From: Cinnamomum chago
Lineage: Eukaryota; Streptophyta; Magnoliopsida; Laurales; Lauraceae
DNA: 64,000 nucleotides
Reading direction: 5' to 3'
NCBI GenBank assembly: GCA_038049695.1
Contig: CP142451.1
Coordinates: 8,306,001 to 8,370,000, forward strand
The position numbers and the translations under genes are program-made. Below the pieces are notes generated by a model, which was not told the DNA's origin, did not search any database, and saw nothing but the letters and a program-made list of their open reading frames with translations. Each line of letters starts with the position of its first letter. The first letter of the stretch is position 1. This document shows, in pieces, positions 3,882 through 64,000 of this stretch.

Positions 3882-6800
3882 GTTCTTCATGCTCCCGATT
3901 TCCGGAATTGCAAAGCTGCTAATGAGATTAGGAAACGTAAGCCCCTTGACATGAATGTTTTGCTTTTCATTTTCTTGCATATTCATTTTATCTGATGCTG
4001 CCAGTCTGAAAAATCATGTTCTAATTATGAGATATAAGTGTTTGAATGATACTTGGATTGGCAAATCCCCTCCCATTTCAGTGTAATTTGGTCTAGAAAA
4101 GGGATTAAAAATATGTAATTTGTTTCATTCCCCTTCATCTGATCTGCATGTATGTGGTGTTGAAAAAAAAGTTACTGATCAAACGAGAATGTCAGAAATG
4201 GTGATATGCCATCCTTGTGCCACTGGTTTCATATTAAATGAAACAATTGAATGCATGAAATGCTTCATTTTGCAAAATTGTGTTTTACTATATATGTAGT
4301 TGTGTTGTGTGAAACAAGTGTTGGATGCTGGAAGCAAGAAACGTAAGTATTTGTATGGCAAATGATCCATAACAATGTGACAAAACACCACCAAATTGTG
4401 CAGAATCTGATATATTTTTTTTTATAACAATAAAATTTATTTCAATGCAAAGGGAAAATAGAAAGACAAAAGGACAAACTAAATAAGGGACATACAACAA
4501 CAAACAACGTTAGATATAAAAAAATATAGTATCTCGAGTGAGTCCTTCCTTTGCAAAACCATCAGCTATCGCATTGGCCTCTCTAAGAATGTGGCGAAAC
4601 AAAGCATGAAGCTGATTGGAAATATCCAGCACCTCTTCCACCCAATCTGCCAATCTCCTAGGATACATGGTCTTACCCGATCCCTATTGAATAGAAAAAA
4701 AAAAAGAATCTCCTTCAATAAGAGAGAAATAACCACCCAACTTAAATAATTTCTGACAACCAACTAACATAGCGAACATTTCAGCTTCATTAGCATTTGA
4801 AGCTTCAATGGGCCCAAAAAAACTCCTAACAATATTACCAGAATGATCCCTTATAACACCCCCCTATACCACCTCGCCTGGATGATATGTGAAAGCTCCC
4901 GTCAAAATTAAGCTTTAGAATACCACTAAGAGGAGGCATCCAACTGATTTGACGAGACGAATTAACACGCCATCCCCCTTTTAAAACAACATCCCATGTT
5001 CTGTTAAGATCATCCAAAAAACTCCTTGAAAAGCATATGTCATAGTCGCCCATTCTGAAACAGTCCTGACAATTATCTCTACTGTTCTACTGCTGTTCTT
5101 GAATATTCTATTATTTCTTTCCAACCAAACCTTCCACAAAAAGGCATATAACAAGAATTTCCATAAAATTCTACCACGAGCAAACCAACACTTGAAGTAC
5201 CACTGCTGAAATAAATCTTCCACTGACCAAGGCAGAACCCAAGAAATACCGAACCGAGCAAAAAGAGTCGTCCAAACATTGTGAGCGAAGTTACAATGAA
5301 TATCAAATGATGCACCGTTTCTTCATCCCTCAAACACATAGGGCAGCCATTAACAATAAAATGATTTCTTCGTCTCAATTTATTTATTGCAAGGATTTTT
5401 TTCTTTCCTCAGTCCTCACCAGCCAGCAAAAACCCAAAACTCTAGGCGGGATATAACGATCCCAAAATCTCCGCCAAAGACCAACTCCACCACCATTAGA
5501 ACTATCAATCAAAACATTATAAAAAGACTTCATTGTAAAGTTACATTTAGCATCATGTTTTCACAACCGAACATCTCTTTTACCCATTGATAAATAGACC
5601 TTATTCAGTAAGCCAAGCAAAATAGAAAGATCTACTATTTCATTGTCTGTCAAGTTCCTTAGAAGACATAAGTCCCAAAAAATAGATCCCCTTATGAAAA
5701 ACAATAGTCTGATCTTTGAATCAAAGTTTCAAGCTGAACATGGCTAATTTTGGGCCATTGCACTGTTACGTAGTTTTTTTTCAAAGCTTATCTTTGTTCA
5801 GTCCTTGAAACTGTTTCTAGTCACTTCCTGGAATATTTAGTGATCTTATATCACATATATTGGGCAGCATGATAATTTATATCTTCTGGATTTTAAAATT
5901 CTATGCTTTCAGATCCGATAGCTGTAGCACTGGAAATTGGTTCTCCTGAATTAAATTTCTACTTTATTGCAATGGAATATGATTATCTTGATGTTGGTTA
6001 TTGGTAAAATGAACTCATATGCCTATATTTTGATGCTAAAATATTCAAATGTTCTTTTGTCATTGAAAACAAAAATTCAAAATTAGATTGCATTTGCAGC
6101 CTCTAACTTTGCTGGAAGTTGGTATCCGAAATGGTAATCAAATATGCTGGTCAGCCATCTGTTTTGAAATTGGAAACCACGATTTGTAGGATATTGTTGT
6201 ACTTTACTGAGTCAGATGCTCATAATGGTGCAAATAATTTGATTTGGAGGAGTTACAAAAAATTACCGAACATGATGTGATTTTTTATTTCTTTTAGCCG
6301 CAGCAGAAGGGATATCCACCATACTGGCAAAAAAATGGGTTGTGATTAGAGGTGTGCCCAAATGCATCCTTTACCATCTATATTTATGTTGCTGTCATCA
6401 TCCTTGAAGCCTCATTTCATCTTTTTCGGGGGGTGGTTGTTCTCAATCAGACCTGGAAAGAGATTGGGTTGATTCCTTAGTTGATTGGAGATTAACACAC
6501 AATTCCATCAGGAAATGGCCTCCCCACTTGATGAGGGCTAAAGATGATAAGTTTTGACTGCTGCTCACTGGGCAACCTCTGATTATGAGGGTAGGGTATA
6601 TGACATGTTGATAAGGGGAGCTCTGTTGTGTTGAGTAAAGGATTTTACATTTTGAAACCTAATTATGCTATGGGTCAAAATAGAGCTTAAGTTTTAGCTT
6701 TTAGGGAAGGGGTTAGGCCCATGAAGCCACATAGATTGGGCGTGTTAATTTTTTAAGGTGATTTGATGAGTGCACTTATTTGGGTGAAAGGAATGTAAAG

Positions 6801-18818: not shown

Positions 18819-21800
18819 TTAACACTTCGCAATAACTCTTTGGAGTGCTTGTTTAATCATTCCAACTGATGCCACAGCTGCTCCTCTAAACTGCAAAAGA
18901 GTCTTTTAACACATCAATATTCATATTAACAACAATGAGGCCTGGACTCAATGTCAAATTGAGGACACAGCCAAGCAAGTATTTATATGACTCCATTTAA
19001 TCATAAAATTTAATAAAGATGGATAAGATAAACTAGAAGTATCAACATAGAAAATAAATGATAAGAGTGGTTCTTGAAACAGATCCTTTTTTAAAAAGTT
19101 AAAAGGAAAATCTTTTTTTTTTTTTCTTTTAACATATAAGTTCCGAACACATCAAGTCTTGATGAGAAAATCCCAGTTGACTGAGAAGAAGAGTTTTTCA
19201 GTCAGATTCATTCGAAATTGAAACCTGATTGATTCTCCTTAGTTTGCAAACCATAAGTAGAATGATACTACAAGAACTGCAAATTGCTTTTTAGGACATC
19301 TAACCTTAGATCTCAGCTTCAGAGTGAGAATGCTGTCAGTGGTGGATGATTGCACTGAATGAGCATCTAAATGGAGATTGCTTATTGCATCCACAATTTC
19401 AAGTAGCAAGCACTCCCTCCATGGACACAGCATCTCAATCAGGACCTCTTTTTCGATTACAGTGACAGTCATATCTGCTAAATTATCCTTGGACAAAACC
19501 CAATTAAGTTCAGCATCTGCGGCATCAATGTTGGATGCTTTCCTTTTGTTTATTGAAGGACTCTTGCCATTGGCATTCTCACTGTGACCATAGTTGTCGG
19601 ATGTCCTCTCTATTATATCTGGGTGCTTCCTTCTCTGTCTCACTTCAGATTCTCCCAACTCTTTGCAAGCTTCCAACTCGTCTACTCTTTGTTCAAGTTC
19701 TTTCAGGTACTCTATCGTGTCACCAAGGACAGATACTTGATCCACCTTCATAGATATTCAACATCAAGAAATACTTTAACCAACTTTACATGTACTCCAA
19801 AGAAGATACCATTATCAAATTCCCAATGTTTTATAGTAAATTCTCTTTGCTTTTTTGAATTTTCTTAGCTTTCAAATCAGAAATTGAGGGCATCAGTCGT
19901 TTTATGCAATATGAGACCTTCACACTACAATATGGCCAAGCCTTGACATAGACAGTAGAGCCATCTCGTACTCCATTGGACAGGAATGGCCTAATACAAA
20001 CCCATAGGCTGCGCTACCAATCAGAGCATTCAGTGCCTGGAAAAGGAGTGGTTCTAGATTAGGTCCAGCTGTCCATTTGGGGACTCTTGAAAGATGGCTA
20101 TGATTATAAAAAGGGATATTGCTTGTACAACGGTCCTTAGACCTGACATTATTCCATTAACTGTTGAAGTTTAAGTATTTCCCACAGAACTGTTCATGCG
20201 ATATCCTAGTCATGCGATATCACACACATCGAGATGTGCAATATCCTAGGGTCATGTGATATCGCACCATTATAGTACTAATAACTCTGCGGGAAATATT
20301 TAAACTTCATCCATTATGGGGCAAATGCCAGATTTAAAGGCGGTTGTACAAGCAATATCCCTTATAAAAACAAGGTGATTACATAAGATTTTCATTTTTT
20401 TACTTTCATTTTTATTATTATTTTTTTCAAATTCTGAGTATCCGGTTCACCATCTGGTATGAAGGATTTTGCACCATACTGTAGTGGAAAGTTTTTGAAC
20501 CAAATCACTCCTCAGCAGGCTAAGAAAGAAAATTCAATACCTTGGTTATCGATGGAACCAGTGAACTGAGAATCAGAAACTTCTCATTCAGTTTCTCTCT
20601 TCTCCTTCTTTCTAAAAAGACATGCTTCGTACCGATATCATCCCCTTCAAATTTCCAAACTATTCCCTTAGAGCCAACTTCTTCTTGGGTTTTCGGTGAG
20701 AAACCATCATGCATCCAAACGACTTCAAACAAAATCTTCTTCAACATCTTCTGCGATGCACTAGCCTGCGGCTTTTCAATATCTAAGTCCTTCCTCCAAA
20801 CTATAAAGCTTGATTCACAAGAACCATTGTCAAAATACGTTTTTGCAATCAAACGGTGGGAGTTACTGAAAATAGCTGAAAGGGTCTTCGTGTAGTGAGG
20901 GTCCTCAGTTTCAAGACCCAATAAGCTAAGTTTGTTATGGTTGCTCTCTTGTTGGTCTTGCACACTCTGATTAGATACTTTTTCTCCCTTTGGAAGGTGC
21001 ACAACCTTCACGGGATTGGCAAGAGACTGAGATATACAGTCACATGAATGCTCATCATCCATAAACTGCCAGCTTTGAACTTGAGAGGCGCCATTTGGTC
21101 CCTCCAGCATGAAAGAATCTTCAGTGTTCTGATTTGGAACACACCCATTTGAGCTACCATCTGAAGAACCCATCTTCAGTTCATCAAAGATATTGGCATT
21201 CAGTTCTTCAATTCTGTCTTGGTCGAGCTCAATTTCATCTTTAGGAATGTAGGAATGAAGAGAGAATGGGAATGCATTGGGTGCATCCTCTGTCTGCATC
21301 TCACAATCAGCAACTGAATTGAGTTTCTCTAAAGGCATGCTGTTCACTATCTCATGATCCAGCTCAGTGCATGTGTGATCTTCATCCCTGTCTGCCTCCT
21401 GGGTGCTTGAAGTTGATTGCTCGGAGCAAACAGGCATTGAAAACTCCAAAAAGGAAGTTTTTACGTGTTGAAGGAGAGGGAGATCTTCAGAGATCTTGAT
21501 ATGATAAAACAAAGTAGAAGTGAAACAAGTTAAGGTGAGTCAGTGATGCAATGCAGTGGATCACCAGTGGTCATGAAATCATTTACCATTCATTTCACTG
21601 TACTCCAACTGCCATTTATTTGATTATATTTACAGCATGGAGCCGGTCCATTCCACTGACTATTTGGGACAAAAACTACAGGTCACATTAGGTACTAAAT
21701 GTTTCCTAACTGTGCCCAAATTAAACCCAGGTTTGGTTCTTCCAATGATGAAAAATAAGCATGTCCTGATGTTGAAATGGAACATCTAAGTTGAACTGTG

Positions 21801-24800
21801 GGCATCTGATTTGGATTATGTGGAGTCCACCTTGCTTGATCCAACCAACTCCCACCACTCTATGTTTCACATTATATAGGCACAGACCCATTTGTCACTT
21901 CAGCCAATGATCTATAACACTATATCACTATATTAATTATATTTAAAAATTGAAGATCTACAGATGATCAATCTAAAAGAATGCATCACTTTGACTGGAG
22001 TAAATTTTGAGCCCGTTCCTGTTTATGCATGTGAGTGCATGAGTGTTTGTGTGGAGATGGGCAGCTAAAACTTCACCAAAAGCTTGGGCTCCACATAGGT
22101 CAAATGAGGCAGTTAGCAAGTGCCAGTTCAGTCACCAAGACATGATCATTTCTCTATAAATATATGCAGAAGTAACAAGAAAAACAATATTTAGTCACCT
22201 CGAATGCAGTGGAACATATATTCCTTCATTTAGGGGACGTTTGTTTTTTTCATTTACATATGTAATTGAATCACATGGGTAATGGATACACAAAAATCAT
22301 GTTTGTTTGGTGTGATTTTGATTCACATGTGTAAAATAGTTGTGTAAATGGTGTGAAAGATGGCCCTTTTTGTGCATTGCATTTTCACACCTCAAGAGGT
22401 GTGAAATACTTTCACACTGCACTGTTACCGGGCGGAGTGCTACAGTGCCTCATTGAGCAGTCCGCCTTTTTTTTTTTTTTGGGCCCCACTTGTAACATCC
22501 AGACCATTCATTCTCTTAAGAAGCTCAAACACGGCCATGTGTCCAATTTTCAACTGTTGATGATGCGTGGAGGTTGAGATATGATCAACATAATCACAGT
22601 CGTTGGATTAATCTATTGTTACTAACATATAACAGTTCGCCTTTTATGATTTTTTTATTTTTCTGGGACCCACCTGTAAAATCAGGGCAGTTCATATTCT
22701 TCAGAAGCTCAACCACAGCCATGTGTCCAATTTTCAACCGTTGATGATGCATGGAGGTTGAGATATCATCAAACAATATACAACCTATTGTTACTAACAT
22801 ACCTAGTCCGCCTTTTATGATTTTTTTAATGTTCTGGGCCCCACCTGTAAAATCAGGACCGTTCATATTCTTCAGAAGCTCAAACACAGTCATGTGTCCA
22901 ATTTTCAACCATTGATGTTGCTTGGATGTTGAGATATCATCAAACAATCTACAACTTATTCATAGATTCACATGTGAAATGTTATGCTAGTAACAAACAG
23001 TGGAATCTGAACCACATGTGAGTCATTTACATATGCAAATGACTCACATGTGGGTCATTTACACATGTGAATCACTTTCACACGAAACAAACGACCCCTT
23101 AGTAAATATATTCAAAACCCCCATGTGCGGGTAAATGTAGTACAGAAAATAAATAAATAAATAGTATAAGAAATTACCAGTTCAGTCACACCCAGCTCCA
23201 GTACTCCACCCATAAGAGGGAAGCATACCACAGTCTGAACATCAATACAATAAAAACGATAAATAAAATCATTACAAGTGCACCAGATATCATTGAATTA
23301 GTAGTAATCATACCTACTTTTACTAACAGGGTTCCACCCGAGGGGGGGTATTGAAAAGTATTTATGTTGCTCTGATACTATATTAAATTTCCTTGACTAA
23401 CCATTCCTACCAAAACCTTGAGGTTTTAGTTTAGGTGGCATAAATACTTTTTAATACTTCCCTTTCGGTGGAGCCCACTCTTCAATACTCCCCCTCAAGT
23501 GGAACCCGATCAGCGCACTTTTGTGACATGCATTTTTTTTAGCGCCAGGTCGATCCTCCTGGGATTCAAGCTCACCATCAGTTGGCTCTGATACCATATT
23601 AAGTTTCCTTAGACTGATATCAATTGTTGAATGCAGTGGCAAACTTCTTTAGTTTACAAACTTATGATTTTTTTGGACATTTTTCAGGTTGGGGTAGCAA
23701 AACTCCCATATCTAGATTGATGAAAACAACAGATTTTACCGAGTGTTTTGTAATGTTGAAGCCCAAGGACGCATTCCAATTTCCCAACACATGGAGCAGA
23801 AGCCTCAACTCGAGGAGTGCAAGCCTCATAAAAACTCGTTTTTAACAAATAAATAATTACATCCTTTTGAAAAAATAAAATTATATTACAGAAATAGAAA
23901 ACGGTACCAGGTAGGCTGTTTTTGAGCCTTTTAATGGGTTAACTAGGGTTGAATTTGATTGAATCTGGCTACATCAGTCAAACTTTTCTTGAAAAAAAAA
24001 TTCAAAATTTTACATAAACTGCCCACTCCTTTTCTTAAAAACAGCAACAATTGTTAATGGGCATCTGTCCCCCAATATGGAGCATCACTGAAGCACATGC
24101 TTCATTTGGGGTGTACGCCTCAAGCATGTCCATACAGCCTAAATGCAGCCCATATCTGAAGCTCATGCTTCATTTGGGGTGTACGCCTCAAAAGCATGCC
24201 TGTATGCCCTAAAACCAAGCCCTGTCTGGCTGTCTCAAATTTGAGGCAGGGCATTTTTGGGAAGCCCAGCCTCGAGGCTTAAGCCCCAAAGGTTTCTGAA
24301 AACACTGAACATGCCAAATATATCTATGTAGTGTAGTCAAAGGCATGTCTGTGATCACCAAAGGATACATGCGCCTAACTAGGCACCAGCGAAGCCTGGT
24401 TTTTAGGCATACAGCTGGTGTCCCCAAGTGCCTAGGCACAGGGCATGAGCCTTGTGTAAGTCCAGTGGACTATTGCAGCCTGATTTGCACCTTCCTTTTA
24501 TTTGAATACCACTTCAGAAATATAACCTATAACCCCAAGACAAAGATTGCACAAGCTAGGGTCTTGTTCAGATGCCCTATATTCACACAAAAATTCGGTC
24601 CTGTGGATATTTGGATTCATTCGGTAACTGGGTTTTCTTGCTAGAATTTGGGTTTTCTCCATTTGTCCCTATTGAGTTTTTGTCTCAAGCCCTATATTCA
24701 ATAAGTTCTAAATCCAGTCTAGAATTGAGGTTCTCTAGAAATTGCATACATTGGGCATTGGATTTTGAAAATCAGGGCTCTAGTGTCGATCAACCTACAA

Positions 24801-27800
24801 GTTGGGTTAGCAATTGGGAATCTTACTCTAGGCTGCATCAGTATGTGCCTGTGTGCGTAGGTATTTTCAGCGCAATGCCACAAGTGTAAGCCATAATGTC
24901 ACAGAAAAGAAGCTCTTCACTATACTATGAACCAGCAGACAACTAATCTGCTAAATGCTTATACGTGCATAGTGCACCGGTGTGGTGTTGTGTTGGATAA
25001 TGAAACAAAGTGAACCTAATACACCTAGTTTGGTAGGATACTGCCTCTAAAGGCAACCAGGGGCGAAGTGTATTGAAGAGGAGCTCCGCAATGACAAAAA
25101 AGAGGTGTTGATATTTCTCTCAAAGCCTATTGTAGTTGGGGACTCTAATGAAGCGTACGTGCTTGCCATTCTAAAAGCTCTGAGAATTTACTCCAGTTCC
25201 TTCTAGGAGAAATTGATTGTAAAGAGCGATTCTTCTAACACCATTGCTTGGGTTTTGCAGAAAGCTACCTTCCCTTGAATTTCACTATATTCTCAATGAG
25301 AACAGATCGTTGTCTGCATTGATTCAATGGTGTTAAATCATATTAATCACTCAGATAATGCCTTCATGGATTCATTAGCCATGGATAGAGGCTCATTTTG
25401 TTGGATCTTGGTGTTTCAGTTTTCCTTTTATTTGTTCTTGTTGTGGTTGGTTTTGGTATATGCTTTTATACCTAACCTTGTTGTAGTTTGCTGCTTCTAT
25501 CTTCTTCTTTTTTTTTAAAGTTTTGTTACCAATCATTGAAAAATAAAAGTGATGATATGAGATGCCCTATCTGTACAAAACTTAGATTTCCAGGAAATGT
25601 GGAATCAGGTTTGCACTTGTACACATGCCTGTAATATTGGTGATGAATTCCAATAAATATTCTCACAGAACAAAAGCACGGGTGAGACACCGATATTCAT
25701 ATCCATTTTAGATTCGGGGAAATGTTGAGGTGTGTCTGCCTGCCTATACCCTTGTTGACACTTGAGCATCATAAATAATAAAACTAGGCCAGATTATTAA
25801 ATCATCGACTACAATAACAAGCTTGTGTCCATACTGATATCTGAGCATCATGGACTACTACCAGTAACCTCATTATATTTTTATTCCCCACATATCATCA
25901 CTAACAACATAAAATGGACATACCCAAATATTATCTATAGCAAAATAAAAGCAATACCTGAATCGATGCGCTCTGGGGAAAGCAACGAATTACACCAGTC
26001 GAATCATTGAATAGAAACCATTTACAGGAAAAAGAGAGTAAAAAGTAAAAGGAAAAAAGTTAGCTTGTTATCTTTTATGGAAGAAGAGGTCCATCAATCC
26101 AATTTGGATTTGATTTTATGGAAGAAGACCACTGACCTTTGCTAGAAGCGAGCGTGTAAAGACCTTGCTATCAGCAAAATGAGCATTGCAAAGCCAGATG
26201 TGATGACCATTTGCAAGTGCTCTTCCAGGCAATCTGGGGTAGAACATAAACATCAAATTTGGTAATCATGTCAAAACAAAGAAGCAATTTGTAAAGGGAG
26301 AAAATGAAAACCAAATACCCACAAGAGCAAAACATGTGAAAAAGGTTGTTTAGGGTCTGAGAAAACTGTCTGGGTTTTTCTTCATAGTATCTAGCCTTAG
26401 AAAGTATAGGTTCAAATTTACATGAAGTTTCCTCTGTAGTATGAAATTACATATAGAGAAATTCACTTGTGGACGTTCACAGTCCACATAAAAGCTATAT
26501 GTAGGGGCCATCTAGATATGCATGTCAATCTGCATAGCAGGGGATTCAAAGGTGCCACAGCTAACAGAGAAAACTCATTTTTTAGAGAGAGGCTCCCATA
26601 AACTCTAGTCAGAATGGCTATAAGATGGAAGGACATATTTTCTAGTCTAATAGAAGAACTGATTGAGCCGACCCTATATTGATGGAGTAAGGCTAAGATG
26701 ATGAAGATTACGATCATGATGATGTGTGTGTTGTTAAGTAGTTAATTTGCCACGCCTCTAACACGTAGGGATTTTGGGTGTAATTTCTTAGAAACTAGGG
26801 ATGGTATCAGAGCCAACACAACCCAAGATCGAATTTGCGCAAGGCCAAAAAAAAAAAAAGGCACCAGGATGACACCCAAAATGCCTAGGCATTAAAGGTG
26901 CAGCAAACAAAACTACTTAACACCCCCCCTCGGGGTGGACACCGCCTGAACTCAAAGCACACACCCGCACAAGATGCAGCATGGGGCCTCTTTACCCTAC
27001 ACACATGCGCCTCACACAACACGGCATGGGGTCTTTTTTTGCCCTACGTGGATTCGAACTCGGGACATGTTGGCTCTAATACCATCTCAATCCCAAAACC
27101 AATTGGTGATGGAAAACTACACAAACAATTATTTAACAAACCTAATACCATCTCAATCCCAACACCGATTGGTGATGAAAAACTGCACAAATAACTACTT
27201 AACAAACCTAATACCATCTCAATCCCAAAACCAATTGGTGATGGAAAACTGCACAAACAACTACTTAACAAACCTAATACCATCTCAATCCCAAAACCAA
27301 TTGGTGATGAAAAACTGCACAAACAACTACTTAACAACCCCCCACCCCCCAGGGGGTGTTAAGTCATGTGCACAGGGCAAAGAGGCCCCATGCCACATCT
27401 TGGGCAAGTGTGTGCTTCGAGTCCGGGAGGTGTCCCGCTCAAGGGGGGTGTTGAGTAGTTAGTTTACCTCACCTTTATTGCCCAGGCATTTTGGGTGCAT
27501 TGGTTAACAACTTAAGATGGTATCAGAGCCAACATGTCCCTGCTTCAAATCCACGCAGAGCAAAAAAAGGCCTCATGCCGCATCTTGGGAGGGTGTGTGC
27601 TTCGAGTCCAGGCGGTGTTCCACCTAAAGGGGGTGTTAAGTAGTTAGTTTGTCACACCTTTAACGCCTAGATATTTTGAGTGCATTGGTTTACAACTTTA
27701 GAGATGCATCTTGTGTGCAGGCACATGTGCGTAGGGCAAAAAGGCTCCATGCCACGTCTTGTGAGGGCAAATGCTTTGAGTCTGGGCTATGTACTGCCCG

Positions 27801-30800
27801 GGGGAGGGGTTGTTAAGTAGTTCATTTGCCGCACCTCTAACGCCTAGGCATTTTGGATGTATTGGTTAGCCACATGAGATGTGTGGTCAAAAACCACAAT
27901 TGCCACACCGCCATCTAAAGCCACTTTTCATAGCAGCCCAACCTGGGGGAACCACTTGGACACATGCCAATGAAAGGGAAAACAGAAAAGAGGGGGCCGG
28001 AATGGAGGTGTGATAAAAAAATGGAGGCTATCTAATCATCCTAAACCCTAGATTTAAAGCCATCATATGTTAGACAAATTTTAGTACTTCACATCCACAA
28101 CACCACCCCAAAATGAATTTTCTTGCATGAATGGCACTCACCTAATTTGACATTCATCAAACCAATTTTATTCTTTGGATTGAATATAAAAAACAATATT
28201 TTGAGAAACTGCATATTTTAATAAACAGTTTAAAGCTTGAGGATTGATTTGTATGATAAATGTTCATTTATGACCCATAATAAATCATGGTTTTCTTTTA
28301 AATAAAATTCATGGTTTAATAAAAATCATGTTATTATAGTCATACACCATCACATAGCATCTCTGATAAATATCTATGCATATGTATAAAGTTCTGCATT
28401 TATATAACCCGTTATAGATCATGTTATTGCAGTCATACCTCTAGTTAATGTATTTCTTTTAAAAGTATATCTCTTATATAAATACTCCCAAATGCATGAG
28501 CTACTCTTGGGCTCACCATATCAGAAATCAGTACCACATTAGATAGAGTCAGCCATATCACATGGTAATATTAGCCTGATAATTCTCTAGTTACAGGTCT
28601 ATTTTGAACAAGTTTCCACTAAAATACAGATCCTACCCATCCTTGGATTTTTGCAAATTACAATGGTGTAACATTTTGGCAGCAAAGACAACCATATTCC
28701 GTTTCCAATCCACTGGTAGCTCAGTGGTGAGGCACCTGCCGGGCTCTCGTTCACAGAAACAACCACAGATCCATCCTGGTTGTAGCACTGGTAAGAGAGC
28801 CAAAAGGACAAATAATAATAATAACAATAATAATAATTCATTCTGGTATACACTTTTGGTGGGTAAATGTTAAAGTGAAGCAAAACAGAGATGCAAAGTG
28901 AAGCAAAACAGTGACGCAAAGTGAACCAAAATATGGCAAGACTGAAGCAACACATTGAAGCAAAAGATCCAATTTGATACCACAGATGAAGCAATTACCC
29001 TTGCCCAGGATTGAATGTGAAGGACATGCAGACTAAGTAGTACCACTCTGTATCTGTGAGATCCTCAGGCGACAATGAAGCCGAAGGCCTCTTGGATTGC
29101 TGGTTGCTGTCGCCAGCAGAAAGAGACCCGTACAATCTTCTCAGTTGCTCACTCCTCTCCAAACCCATTTGGTCAACACTGAGTTCCAGGGGTTGCAATT
29201 GTAACGTCTTCCTTGTCTTTATATCCCCATTGTAGTAGCCAGCACCCCATTCCAGCACCCTTGAAATCCCCATTTCCACAAAAACACACGGGAAAAGACA
29301 AATCTGAGAATAAAGCTTAAAAACTCTAAAAACATTACTCAACTTAGACATCTGTGATGATGTCATCAAAACTCAAATGTCCTGAATCACAAAAGCAAAC
29401 CAAAAGATTAAGGTCCCAAAGTGTCAAAGTGATGCCAATCTTTCCCAGAATAGGTCGTTATTTGTTTTGCCATGTTCTTGGGTGGGAACAGTATTACATA
29501 GGCAACTCTTTTTCTGATCCCAATTAATAGCAACAATGTTCCAGGTCTGACCTGAAGCATGGCCTATTATCATTGGGCAAGTGTGCCCCATTCTTAAGAA
29601 GGTTAAGACATGCAAAACAAGAATTTAAGGACATGTTTCATATTTGTTAAGTTTAAGTGGCCAGAACTAGCAACCTTGTGGTTGCAGCAATGAGAACCAT
29701 CCAACCTATGATACCCGGATACCTCAAAATCAGCAACATCCCATATCATATCCAATACTTCATCTTTTATGCATGAAATCTGTCCATCATACAAATTGCA
29801 TATCCAGACGGTATCTGGGCATCTTAGACATATTGCAACCTCGCCACTAGTATATACCCCAAATTGATAGTGAATTGGTCAGCAGAAAGGGATTTTATCC
29901 ACTTTGCTTTATGAATCAGTGCAGAAGCAGAAATTTATCAAAGGAGAGAGTGTTTTATGATACTAATCCTAAAATCCACTGGCACATAAGTGAGTTTCAA
30001 AAAGAAGAAAATCAATACCTATTAAGTTTATTTTCTGCAATGCTTCTATTCAGGAATATCATAGTGCACCGTATTTGAAGAGAGAAGACTGTGTGTGAAT
30101 GTGCACGCGTGCAGTTCACTAATTGGGTGAGCATCAGCAACAGGAGGCCAGAGAAGAACCCATCCTTCTCACTGATTAAGCCCGAAATTCATTTAAAGAT
30201 AACAAAACTGTCAACTCTGTTAGAATTTGCAGCTCGATTTATGTTATAGAAGTGTTCTTTCCTAGTTTGGATGACCAAGTGGATAGTTTCCATATCATAT
30301 AAATGCAACAAGTTTCTTATTTTGGGTATGAAGCATTTTAGAGAATGTGTTTCTTATTTTGGTCATAATTCTATCATGAAAGCATTATAGTTATAAGAAA
30401 CAACCTCATGATGCCTCTGTATAAAGGAAACTCTTATATGTCACAATTTGCAGTAAGAGAAGGGTTGGTCATTTAACTCCCTCTAAGGAGTTCAACATTC
30501 ATGAGTATTTTTTTATGGCATGGTTCATGTGATACAAAATTAGAAGTCCTTTTCGAAGGTGAGAGACTTTTTTTTCAGGATTATTTTGGTATTAAGCATG
30601 TATATGGTACATGATGGTGATCTCGTGTTCACTTTTTGGCTTTTGATGCACTAGATCTTCTTAGCTCTTGATACAACAAAGCCATTATCCTTTTCACCCA
30701 TGGATGTAGCACCATCCGTGGATGTAGTGTAGCGCTCCTCGCCACCATCTTGAAAATCTTAAGAGTTTTTTTTTTAACATATGGCTGGTTTGTTTAGATA

Positions 30801-34019: not shown

Positions 34020-37000
34020 ATTGAGACAAAAGGTTTTAATGAAAAAATGATGTGCGTGAGTAATGGCACTAATAGCTTCAAACCATCTTCTTATGTTCTC
34101 ACATTCAATGGACAAATGATTGATTGGTGACTTGAAATAAGATTTTGATGATAATGTATGAGAGAGATAGAAAGACTAAAACTTCAATCCATTTACTGAC
34201 AAGTGTGAATGATCCATTCATACACCCATCATGCCCATCAAAATGGGACACATCTATTTGAGATCCACTTGAATCATCCTGCCCATCTTACCCTATCCAA
34301 TACAATATTACAATGGACAATGCATCCGATTTATCTCTCCAACCAATCAATATATACATGTTAAACACAGTAGATAAAGCATCAAACCATCCATCAATCC
34401 TATCTGCATGATATAGCATTCGATATAAGCCAGCATCCCTCCATAAAGATTTGAGTCCGGATTTAATAAGATAAAATTTCACGGCGACGGTGGGTAGACC
34501 AACTACAGTCCGCCACATCACCGTATGATTCTTTATATGCCTGTTCCATAGGAGAATCATCCATATGGGATTCTTTAGATCAAAGATTTATCAACCACCC
34601 ATCATGTGGACTGCTAGATGGTAGACCTGATCACTAGATCCAACCATCCACCAACTATACGGGTCCCACTGACTGGAATATACTGGTCTATGATGAAGAT
34701 CCTACATGTCTTGTGCCACCAAAATGGAATCCATTACAACCAACCAACCTCCTTAACTTTTACTTTGACCTACCCCATCTGACCAAATCCTCCCTACGTT
34801 GGGACACGATGGGTAGATTTTCTTGCATTTCGTCTAATGGGTCCCATGTGAATGGGTAGATTAGCTGGGTCTAATGAGGGTCCCACATAAGAAGGTCTTT
34901 GAGAGGGCTCACCATGACAATATTTTTCAGGTAGCTCCACCTTATTCCATCATCCAATTAGACCCTACGATTGGGGTGGGGGTGGGGTGGTTACAGATGC
35001 TGTTGTCAGGAGTAGGACTCAGGAGCAGGCATGACAATTGACAAGACCTACTGTAACTACTATAGCAAGGTTTTCAATTCCCAATAGGTGCTAGCCTGGC
35101 TTAGAGAAAGCCATGAATATTTGGACTTTCCCCTAACCGATATCTACATGAGTGACATTTTATGTGGCCCACATGAGGCTAACACCAATCATGGGGAGCA
35201 AGAGATGAGAGGGTCTATGTGTAGATAAAGATTTCATTAAAAGAAAAAAAAGCCAAAAAATAAAAAGAATTAGGCTTGTTGGATGTTCATAAGTATGGAT
35301 TTTAAAGCCTCATAAATTAATCATGAAAGCATATAAAAATGAGGTGTTTTAATTCAATGGTGAAAAAATAGCTAGATAAATGTTCATCTCAGGAGAGTGT
35401 CAATTCATGGGTGGATTACAGAGAGAGTCCCCTGTAGTGTAGACCAGCTTAAAAGAGAGTAATCAACATCCCTCTTAGAGAAATAATATAGAATTGATAT
35501 GCTGTCAGGCTTTGGTGCAGCCTTCTAAACCAAGATGATAATCATCTTGGTAAGTATGATTGGGCCTCGAGGTCAAGTCTACAATTATGGACCCATCTGA
35601 TAAATGGACCATGAACAACCCTCGAAGTTCAGTCCTCCAACATGGGCTCTACCTATTCAAAACCCTCATCAACTCCCAGGTCAGTTTTAATCTATACATA
35701 ACAGATGACTATCAAAAACCAAATAAAAATGTGATCCACTTTTTTTCCCTTCTTTTTTTTTTTTTTGCTTCTTTTTATATTTTGTAAGGGAGGAATGGTA
35801 AATTATCTTGATCCTAAACAACCCCAATTCATAACCTTAAGGATCATTCCTAGTGTTCTACCAAAATCAGCACTTCACAATCGCCCTATAGTGTTATGTC
35901 ATAGCGTTCTACTAATGCCTCCAGGCTTTGATATGAATTGTTAGCTAAAGAAATTTAAGATAGTATTAGAGGCAATCAATACTAACACCTTAAGGCTTTG
36001 GTAAGAATGAATGATTAGCTAAATAAATTTAAGACTCCTACCTAGTACTCCGCTAGCGCGAGGGTCAATCCCTAGCACTAACGCATTTGCGGTTAGACCA
36101 TTTGGTAATTCACAAAACATGGATCACCTTGTTTTTTAGTGTCCCTTAATTTTATATGGTAACGTGAAGATTCTGTTTCACTAGAAGTTTTGATATTGAA
36201 ATATAATGACCATGGGAAGAAGAAAACCAATAGAGTAGTTTTGTTGTTTGACCATAAGTGATGGTGTTGAGACTAAAGAACTGAGACAAATACACAAGCT
36301 AGAGCATTGATTATCATTTCACATCTCTCAATTTTCGCATGATTCAGAGGTCGTAAGATGACATGGAGAGTATCATTTGGTCCCATGAATTTAGTATAAG
36401 CTTGTTTGAAAATGGAGGAGTTCTTATCTGTAATGAGACTAAGAGGGAGTGAAAAGCCTGAAAGGAATGAGATTAAGACAGGCAACAAAGAAATGAAGGG
36501 TATGTTGCATGACTTCGTCAAAAGAATTCACAATTTCGCTTTCATAAAATGTGTCATATGGCCATCTCATAAATGTTATGAAATGTGGAGGTCACATTCA
36601 TCTTTGTTTTGTCAAATTGCGTGATTAGCTTAAATTAGGATCTTTGCTTAGCATTCCATTTACCTGAGGTCAATGACAATTGCTGAAATCTTAGCCTGTC
36701 CAAATGCATCAGCCGGGGTTGTCTTCTTTAATCATTTCAAATCTTGAGCCTTAAAAATAAATAAATAAATTGGCATAAGAGATTTTGCATATGCTCAGAC
36801 AAATCCATAAGGTAAATTTGTGGAAGTTGTTCAAGATAAATTGTTTCTTAACAATAAGGGTTTTAATTAATGAGATGGAGGCCAAGTAACACACTTCTGA
36901 AAACAATGAATGTAAGACTAAATATACAAATCACTTGACTCATTTTCAAAAATCATAAGCTATAATTGTTTTCATTTTTAAATGACATGGAAACATGTGC

Positions 37001-63087: not shown

Positions 63088-64000
63088 TATATTGAAACTG
63101 CCTACAAAATTATTCATGGAGAATGTATGGATTGCCCAAGATCCAGCTTTAATTGGAAGGAGCCACATCGCCTTCCTCTCCCCCAAAGAGTTCTATTTTT
63201 TGGTTGGAATTTCCTTAATAACGCAATTCAGGTACGCAAATTGCTTTATGACAAAAATATCTCCAATGAAGCCCTATGCCCTATTTGCACAAAAGCAAAA
63301 GAATCGGTGGAGCATGCTCTCTTTCTATGTGATCTTGCTAGGACGGCTTGGTTTGGATCTTACATTGGAATGCATTCACATTCCATAGATCTTACTACAT
63401 TTAGGGGGTGGTGGATTTCCTTTATCAATTTTTGTCAATCGATGAGCCCTCCAACCCATCCTCAAACTAAATCATGGGTTTTGGCTCTCTGGTGGGCCTT
63501 GTGGAAAACCATAAATGATTTTATTTTCAGGGGCATAAAAATTAAGCCAATGTCCACAATCCTATATGCTCGGAATTTGTTTTGTGAACCAATGAGCAAG
63601 GCTAAAGAGGATGATCAAGAATCCTCATATCTTCCACAAGATTTAAGTTTTTGGTACACTACGGGCAAGGCTCAGGTGTTCACAGATGCCTCATTTAGAG
63701 CCGCGGATGGAAAAGCAGGCTTTGACTATGCTATTTGGTTTGATGGTTCTTGGGTGCATGCAAGATTTGTCAATGGTCCCAAGGTTAACTCCTCAAAAGA
63801 AGCCGAGACAAGGGCAATTCTTCATGCGCTAAATGAAGCTATGTCGCAGGGTAAGATCCATCTTTTGTCAGATGCCTGTGAGGTGATTCTAGCAATTAAT
63901 GGGTTGATGGATTGGTCAATCCATCCTATTTTGTTAGTTATCAAAGACTTCATCTCCAAGTTTGAAGATATCTCCTTTGCCCATTTTCCTGGAAATGTAA
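63088..64000 (+). CDS. L1 LINE ORF2 C-terminus (zf-RVT plus RNase H), runs off the window
   Basis: One frame stays open from 63088 (just after TAG 63085-63087) to the window edge, about 304 codons. It holds the zinc-binding tail of plant L1 reverse transcriptases (FFGWNFLNNAIQVRKLLYDK, then LCPICTKAKESVEHALFLC near 63281-63337), a Trp-rich linker (LALWWALWKTINDFIFRG) and an RNase H domain with FTDASF, SKEAETRAILHAL and LLSDACEVILAI, which supply the Asp-Glu-Asp catalytic set. There is no initiator methionine, and the reverse-transcriptase core is absent to the left, so the copy is 5'-truncated or broken at 63087. The 3' end lies outside the window. Confidence 0.85.

Follow-up and report, generated by a model that had tools for sequence, protein, structure and literature searches.

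A putative tandemly arrayed TRIM, partly inverted, within a bHLH gene intron of Cinnamomum chago

An intron of a bHLH gene in Cinnamomum chago carries short repeated units with the look of LTR retrotransposon ends, which raises the questions of what kind of element they form and whether they arrived once or several times. All positions given here refer to the window, which is the whole 64,000-nucleotide stretch that was analysed (CP142451.1, positions 8,306,001 to 8,370,000). The region 26732-27879 is a repeat cluster, old and rearranged, of very small, non-coding LTR elements that partly face each other. An earlier note on this DNA had placed the cluster at 26732-27872; the cluster is real, but its right border had to be moved to 27879. 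In both identity and way of working, the cluster is very probably a tandemly arrayed terminal-repeat retrotransposon in miniature (TRIM).

The host is a bHLH-MYC_N gene on the minus strand, and the cluster lies wholly inside a predicted intron of 2,765 bp. Minus-strand frames match bHLH-MYC_N (28998-29372, E 1.4e-12), part of HLH (20523-21539, E 1.9e-5) and the plant bHLH ACT-like domain (19242-19757, E 6.2e-20), all above cut-off. The exon at 26233-26137 encodes a 32-residue peptide that carries on the bHLH-MYC_N profile with E 0.00012, below the family cut-off. A GT at 28998 follows the exon ending in NPGQG and an AG at 26234 precedes the exon beginning LPGRALANG, in frame. With bHLH exons on both sides, the intronic location proposed earlier is supported. 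In the same gene, a candidate 15-nt exon AGCGCATCGATTCAG (SASIQ) at 25958-25972 on the minus strand lies between an AG and a GT and would link in frame the bHLH exons ending SLLAK and beginning TVVCFP. Among motifs partly encoded by plant microexons, bHLH-MYC_N is described as one of the most frequent (PMC8831610).

LTR-type starts occur on the plus strand at 26732, 27449, 27634 and 27811, and on the minus strand at 26922, 27204, 27270 and 27336, with a more diverged minus-strand start at 27138. The LTR-start pattern (up to 3 mismatches) was found nine times in the window, eight times in the cluster and once at 5764, against a shuffle mean of 0.43. Six occurrences of the primer-site pattern, among them three in the cluster and one in a second element described below, compare with a shuffle mean of 0.16. 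Neither count was equalled in any of 100 shuffles; the cluster is not a chance arrangement. An ungapped repeat family has copies starting at 26727, 27444, 27629 and 27806, three of them 63-82% identical to the reference copy. Their spacings are 717, 185 and 177 bp, the last two being those reported in the earlier note. The features of the locus are as follows.

26234-28998, minus strand: host intron (GT..AG), splice sites predicted from sequence
26727-26731, no strand: putative left target-site duplication (TSD) TGTGT, the same 5-mer as at 27880-27884
26732-26801, plus strand: LTR A0, 70 bp (repeat family, copy alignment)
26802-26868, plus strand: primer site TGGTATCAGAGCC and truncated A0 interior (pattern search, alignment)
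26869-26922, minus strand: truncated type-A LTR, 3' end of the inverted element (pattern search, alignment, profile search)
26923-27084, minus strand: full 162-bp interior, from primer site TGGTATTAGAGCC to purine tract GAGGGGGGG (pattern search, alignment)
27076-27337, minus strand: 66-bp array of 4.0 copies, each a 54-bp type-B LTR with a 12-nt primer-site remnant; the last unit enters the interior
27338-27364, no strand: head-to-head junction with two facing G-rich tracts and a truncated LTR start (read directly)
27365-27448, plus strand: 3' part of an interior with purine tract AAGGGGGG (repeat family, profile search)
27449-27517, plus strand: LTR A1, 69 bp (repeat family, alignment)
27518-27633, plus strand: interior of the simplest unit, with primer site at 27518-27530 and purine tract at 27626-27633
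27634-27702, plus strand: LTR A2, 69 bp (repeat family, alignment)
27703-27810, plus strand: second interior, primer site lost (repeat family, alignment)
27811-27879, plus strand: LTR A3, 69 bp, outer end of the composite (alignment, profile search, border test)
27880-27884, no strand: putative right TSD TGTGT (border-pair test)
23330-23640, minus strand: distantly related second TRIM, partly fold-back, with LTR-like TATT..AATA and a primer site at 23596-23584; outer borders approximate

In a copy alignment made from stretches cut by hand beforehand, each of the four plus-strand LTRs spans 69-70 bp, opening with TGTTRAG and closing with GA. Repeated plus-strand units had been noted before with a length of 61-62 bp; the units stand, and the shorter LTR was rejected because the primer site begins only after 69-70 bp. 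The primer site TGGTATCAGAGCC occurs at 26802 and 27518, abutting the ends of LTRs A0 and A1 with zero gap. Its sequence is complementary at every base to the 3' end of plant initiator tRNA-Met, in line with the earlier assignment of an initiator-Met primer-binding site. For the last copy, the profile search extends similarity to 27881 because TG follows in both, and the end of A3 was placed at 27879 by the start of the primer site. The simplest unit, 27449-27702, measures 254 bp, with an LTR of 69 bp, an interior of 116 bp and a second LTR of 69 bp. The interior of about 95 bp described previously corresponds to 27531-27625, from the end of the primer site to the start of the purine tract, rather than to the whole. 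The polypurine tract AAAGGGGG at 27626-27633 directly precedes the LTR at 27634; reading of the sequence places a similar purine tract before 27449 and a G-rich tract before 27811, so that G-rich tracts stand before three LTRs; the earlier note had a purine tract directly before the next unit. Across the six pairs of plus-strand type-A LTRs, identity ranges from 49/70 to 57/69 aligned bases.

Facing these units is a minus-strand element whose four 54-bp LTRs are of a different type (B) and lie in a 66-bp tandem array; Tandem Repeats Finder gives it 4.0 copies and 93% matches over 27076-27337. In the minus-strand direction, a 12-nt primer-site remnant separates the type-B LTRs; beyond the array come a primer site altered at one position, then 162 bp of interior closed by a purine tract, and finally a 54-bp piece of type-A LTR. 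The inverted copy noted earlier is thus present, not as a single plain copy but as a four-fold array with a full interior and a truncated type-A LTR. The four type-B LTRs are 47/54 to 53/54 identical, and the LTR identities make the B array look more recent than the A copies. Because the inverted element starts with a type-B LTR (5') and finishes with a type-A LTR (3'), it did not arise directly from a single round of reverse transcription, and recombination therefore appears to have taken part. Within the inverted interior, a tRNA B-box-like word GTTCGAATCC was seen by eye at 27050-27059 on the minus strand, 12 bases past the primer site; neither ARAGORN nor Rfam called a tRNA gene there.

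The traits of a TRIM that are found here are short direct repeats around a short interior (69-116-69 bp at 27449-27702), a primer site adjoining the 5' LTR, a polypurine tract before the 3' LTR and, at the outermost borders only, a 5-bp TSD. Counting against this reading is the LTR end GA rather than the usual CA, and the mixed LTR types of the inverted element count against one simple round. None of the three frames of at least 90 aa lying wholly in the cluster exceeds the Pfam cut-off; one of them has three matches below it, the best being to DUF6193 (E 0.0079). These results support the earlier description of a miniature LTR element, and its statement that the element has no coding capacity also holds. 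Named families with special LTRs were compared as well. The 85-bp LTR with TGT..ACA ends of SMART (FRetro129) is not seen, the LTR here being 69 bp with TG..GA ends. TRIMs whose LTRs resemble tRNA or 5S rRNA have been described (PMC10886601). For the 5S rRNA-like LTR of Cassandra and Ajax, no Rfam match reached the cut-off in the window and no 5S match was found to E 1 in 26700-27900. For the tRNA-like LTR of Helenus, ARAGORN, Rfam at cut-off and Rfam to E 1 (26700-27900) gave no match, although a strongly decayed tRNA might escape them. The hammerhead ribozyme described as a feature of Retrozymes (PMC4918200) had no Rfam match, and an Rfam match to suhB was below cut-off.

A distantly related second TRIM sits at 23330-23640 in another intron of the same gene, about 95 bp before the exon starting at 23234. 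A search with 23330-23665 returned an inverted self-match (E 1.6e-7), LTR-like fragments at 35909-35974 on the plus strand (E 1.5e-5), a plus-strand match at 35972-36034 below the inclusion threshold (E 0.029), and weak matches to the main cluster (best E 2e-5). Its self-match comes partly from a weak palindrome within its LTR, and its RNA fold is -101.4, versus a mean of -73.6 (sd 4.6, 50 shuffles). No TSD is claimed for it, as two 5-mer matches among many border pairs are at chance level. Outside the cluster, a profile of its element hit nothing strong in the window: two weak matches (E 0.00045 and 0.017) fall on a single distantly related element, one more lies near 35911 (E 0.21), and the remaining four have E values above 2.

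The number of arrivals is addressed by the outer borders. The 5-mer TGTGT flanks the outermost LTR ends and is the sole match in 10 plus-strand border pairs; none of the 10 minus-strand border pairs had matching 5-mers. Among 50 end positions scanned, 27879 alone fits a TSD. TGTGT makes up 0.14% of window 5-mers, which is the chance by window frequency, and the chance is higher in the TG-rich flank; it occurs twice in 2,042 bases of flank. The 5-mer was first noticed by eye and the border test came afterwards; the observation concerns a single 5-mer at one locus with a TG-rich flank. This duplication around the composite is a new observation beyond the earlier note. It suggests that the composite traces to one insertion, for which it is good but not final evidence, and we regard a single founder, taken as a step by itself, as probable. 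A near-minimal LTR element would then seem to have expanded from a single insertion into an intronic array, partly inverted, whose outer duplication is still readable.

The presence of two LTR types (69 and 54 bp) in two orientations would also fit at least two independent nested insertions of TRIMs from two subfamilies in opposite directions, which would still be TRIMs and would differ only in the single-founder step. We consider this unlikely; the inner border pairs tested (9 plus-strand and 10 minus-strand, a set that lies outside the truncated 3' end of the inverted element) have no 5-bp duplication of their own. It is quite doubtful that the fold-back composite serves as an intronic source of small RNAs that silence TRIM-like sequences or affect the bHLH gene. 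The gene-sense strand folds at -530.2 kcal/mol, versus a mean of -361.9 (sd 9.3, 12 shuffles), and small RNAs of 21-24 nt targeting TRIMs have been reported (PMC4717578). However, any such inverted repeat folds; the strong fold of the cluster follows from its inverted layout and does not demonstrate small-RNA production, and the Rfam match to MIR2646 scores 23.1 bits against a cut-off of 245. That sub-threshold match covers 26731-26923 on the minus strand, on the facing LTR arms. If the composite does make small RNAs, a tiny transposon could be tied to the control of a bHLH regulator; without them, it would be an ordinary TRIM relic.

A wider reading, in our judgement distinctly improbable, is that these miniature elements regularly undergo fold-back joining, as if their cDNAs had inserted into one another within the particle ahead of chromosomal integration, and that this leaves intronic hairpins able to feed small-RNA pathways. 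Of the two insertions in this gene, one has a clear head-to-head layout and the other a partial one. It is highly improbable that the repeats are a local satellite or minisatellite with no more than a likeness to LTR parts, expanded in place without ever transposing: the 66-bp array is a true tandem repeat and the window holds no other close family copy, but the primer site lies exactly at the LTR end, purine tracts precede the LTRs, the outer borders carry a 5-bp duplication, and a diverged element of the same layout occurs elsewhere in the window.

On the preferred reading of a tandemly arrayed TRIM with one founder, the element would have relied for its movement on reverse transcriptase and integrase supplied in trans by an autonomous element, probably of the Ty1/copia type. 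From what is known of the family, its RNA would have been primed by initiator tRNA-Met at TGGTATCAGAGCC, with plus-strand synthesis starting at the G-rich tract. The founder may have entered the intron once, leaving the observed TGTGT on both sides. Recombination between copies, before or after insertion, could then have added LTRs, inverted the middle and joined the two LTR types, and later unequal crossing-over or slippage may have amplified the 54-bp LTR and primer-site remnant to four. At present the cluster is most likely no longer mobile, a relic removed from the transcript when the intron is spliced.

The cluster looks like the tandemly arrayed TRIMs (TA-TRIMs) already described in plants, a likeness by description. 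TRIMs, of which 156 families are described in PMC4717578, are small, non-coding and enriched in or near genes, and the TA-TRIMs there include two inverted TRIMs with one TSD. Shared with the cluster are extra LTRs and interiors in a row, an inverted example and a 5-bp TSD around the whole; the cluster differs, again by description, in mixing two LTR types and in its four-fold 54-bp LTR with primer-site remnant. Maize Wukong also forms TRIM arrays, with three to seven LTRs in 15 of 89 intact elements, but has 230-bp LTRs, a 72-bp interior and LTRs usually in one orientation (PMC4528315). SMART, reported from grasses only and with a copia element as its proposed autonomous partner, measures 292 bp with an 85-bp LTR and a 122-bp interior (PMC3281118). 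Likened by description, it too is a tiny LTR element that lacks autonomy and frequently sits within or close to genes; its interior is near in length to the 116 bp found here, and it differs in its longer LTR and TGT..ACA ends. Pigeon pea CcaRetroS9 (233 bp, 52-bp LTRs; PMC4717578) is of equal size class and is likened by size alone. The earlier rating of the design as among the smallest therefore holds loosely; a record was rejected, since the 233-bp TRIM was already published.

A text search of the literature did not find two LTR words of the cluster, and a word of the second element occurred only in three unrelated papers. One viral and 10 prokaryote contigs with a 17-base purine tract and LTR start pattern were dismissed as chance, the element profile giving one match in the 11 records (E 0.2); a 19-base primer-site pattern had no match among viral contigs. 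Elsewhere in the window, a plus-strand frame at 63088-63999 carries zf-RVT and reverse transcriptase-like/RNase H domains, the RNase_H match being below cut-off, and judging by these domains it is probably a piece of a LINE-type retrotransposon.
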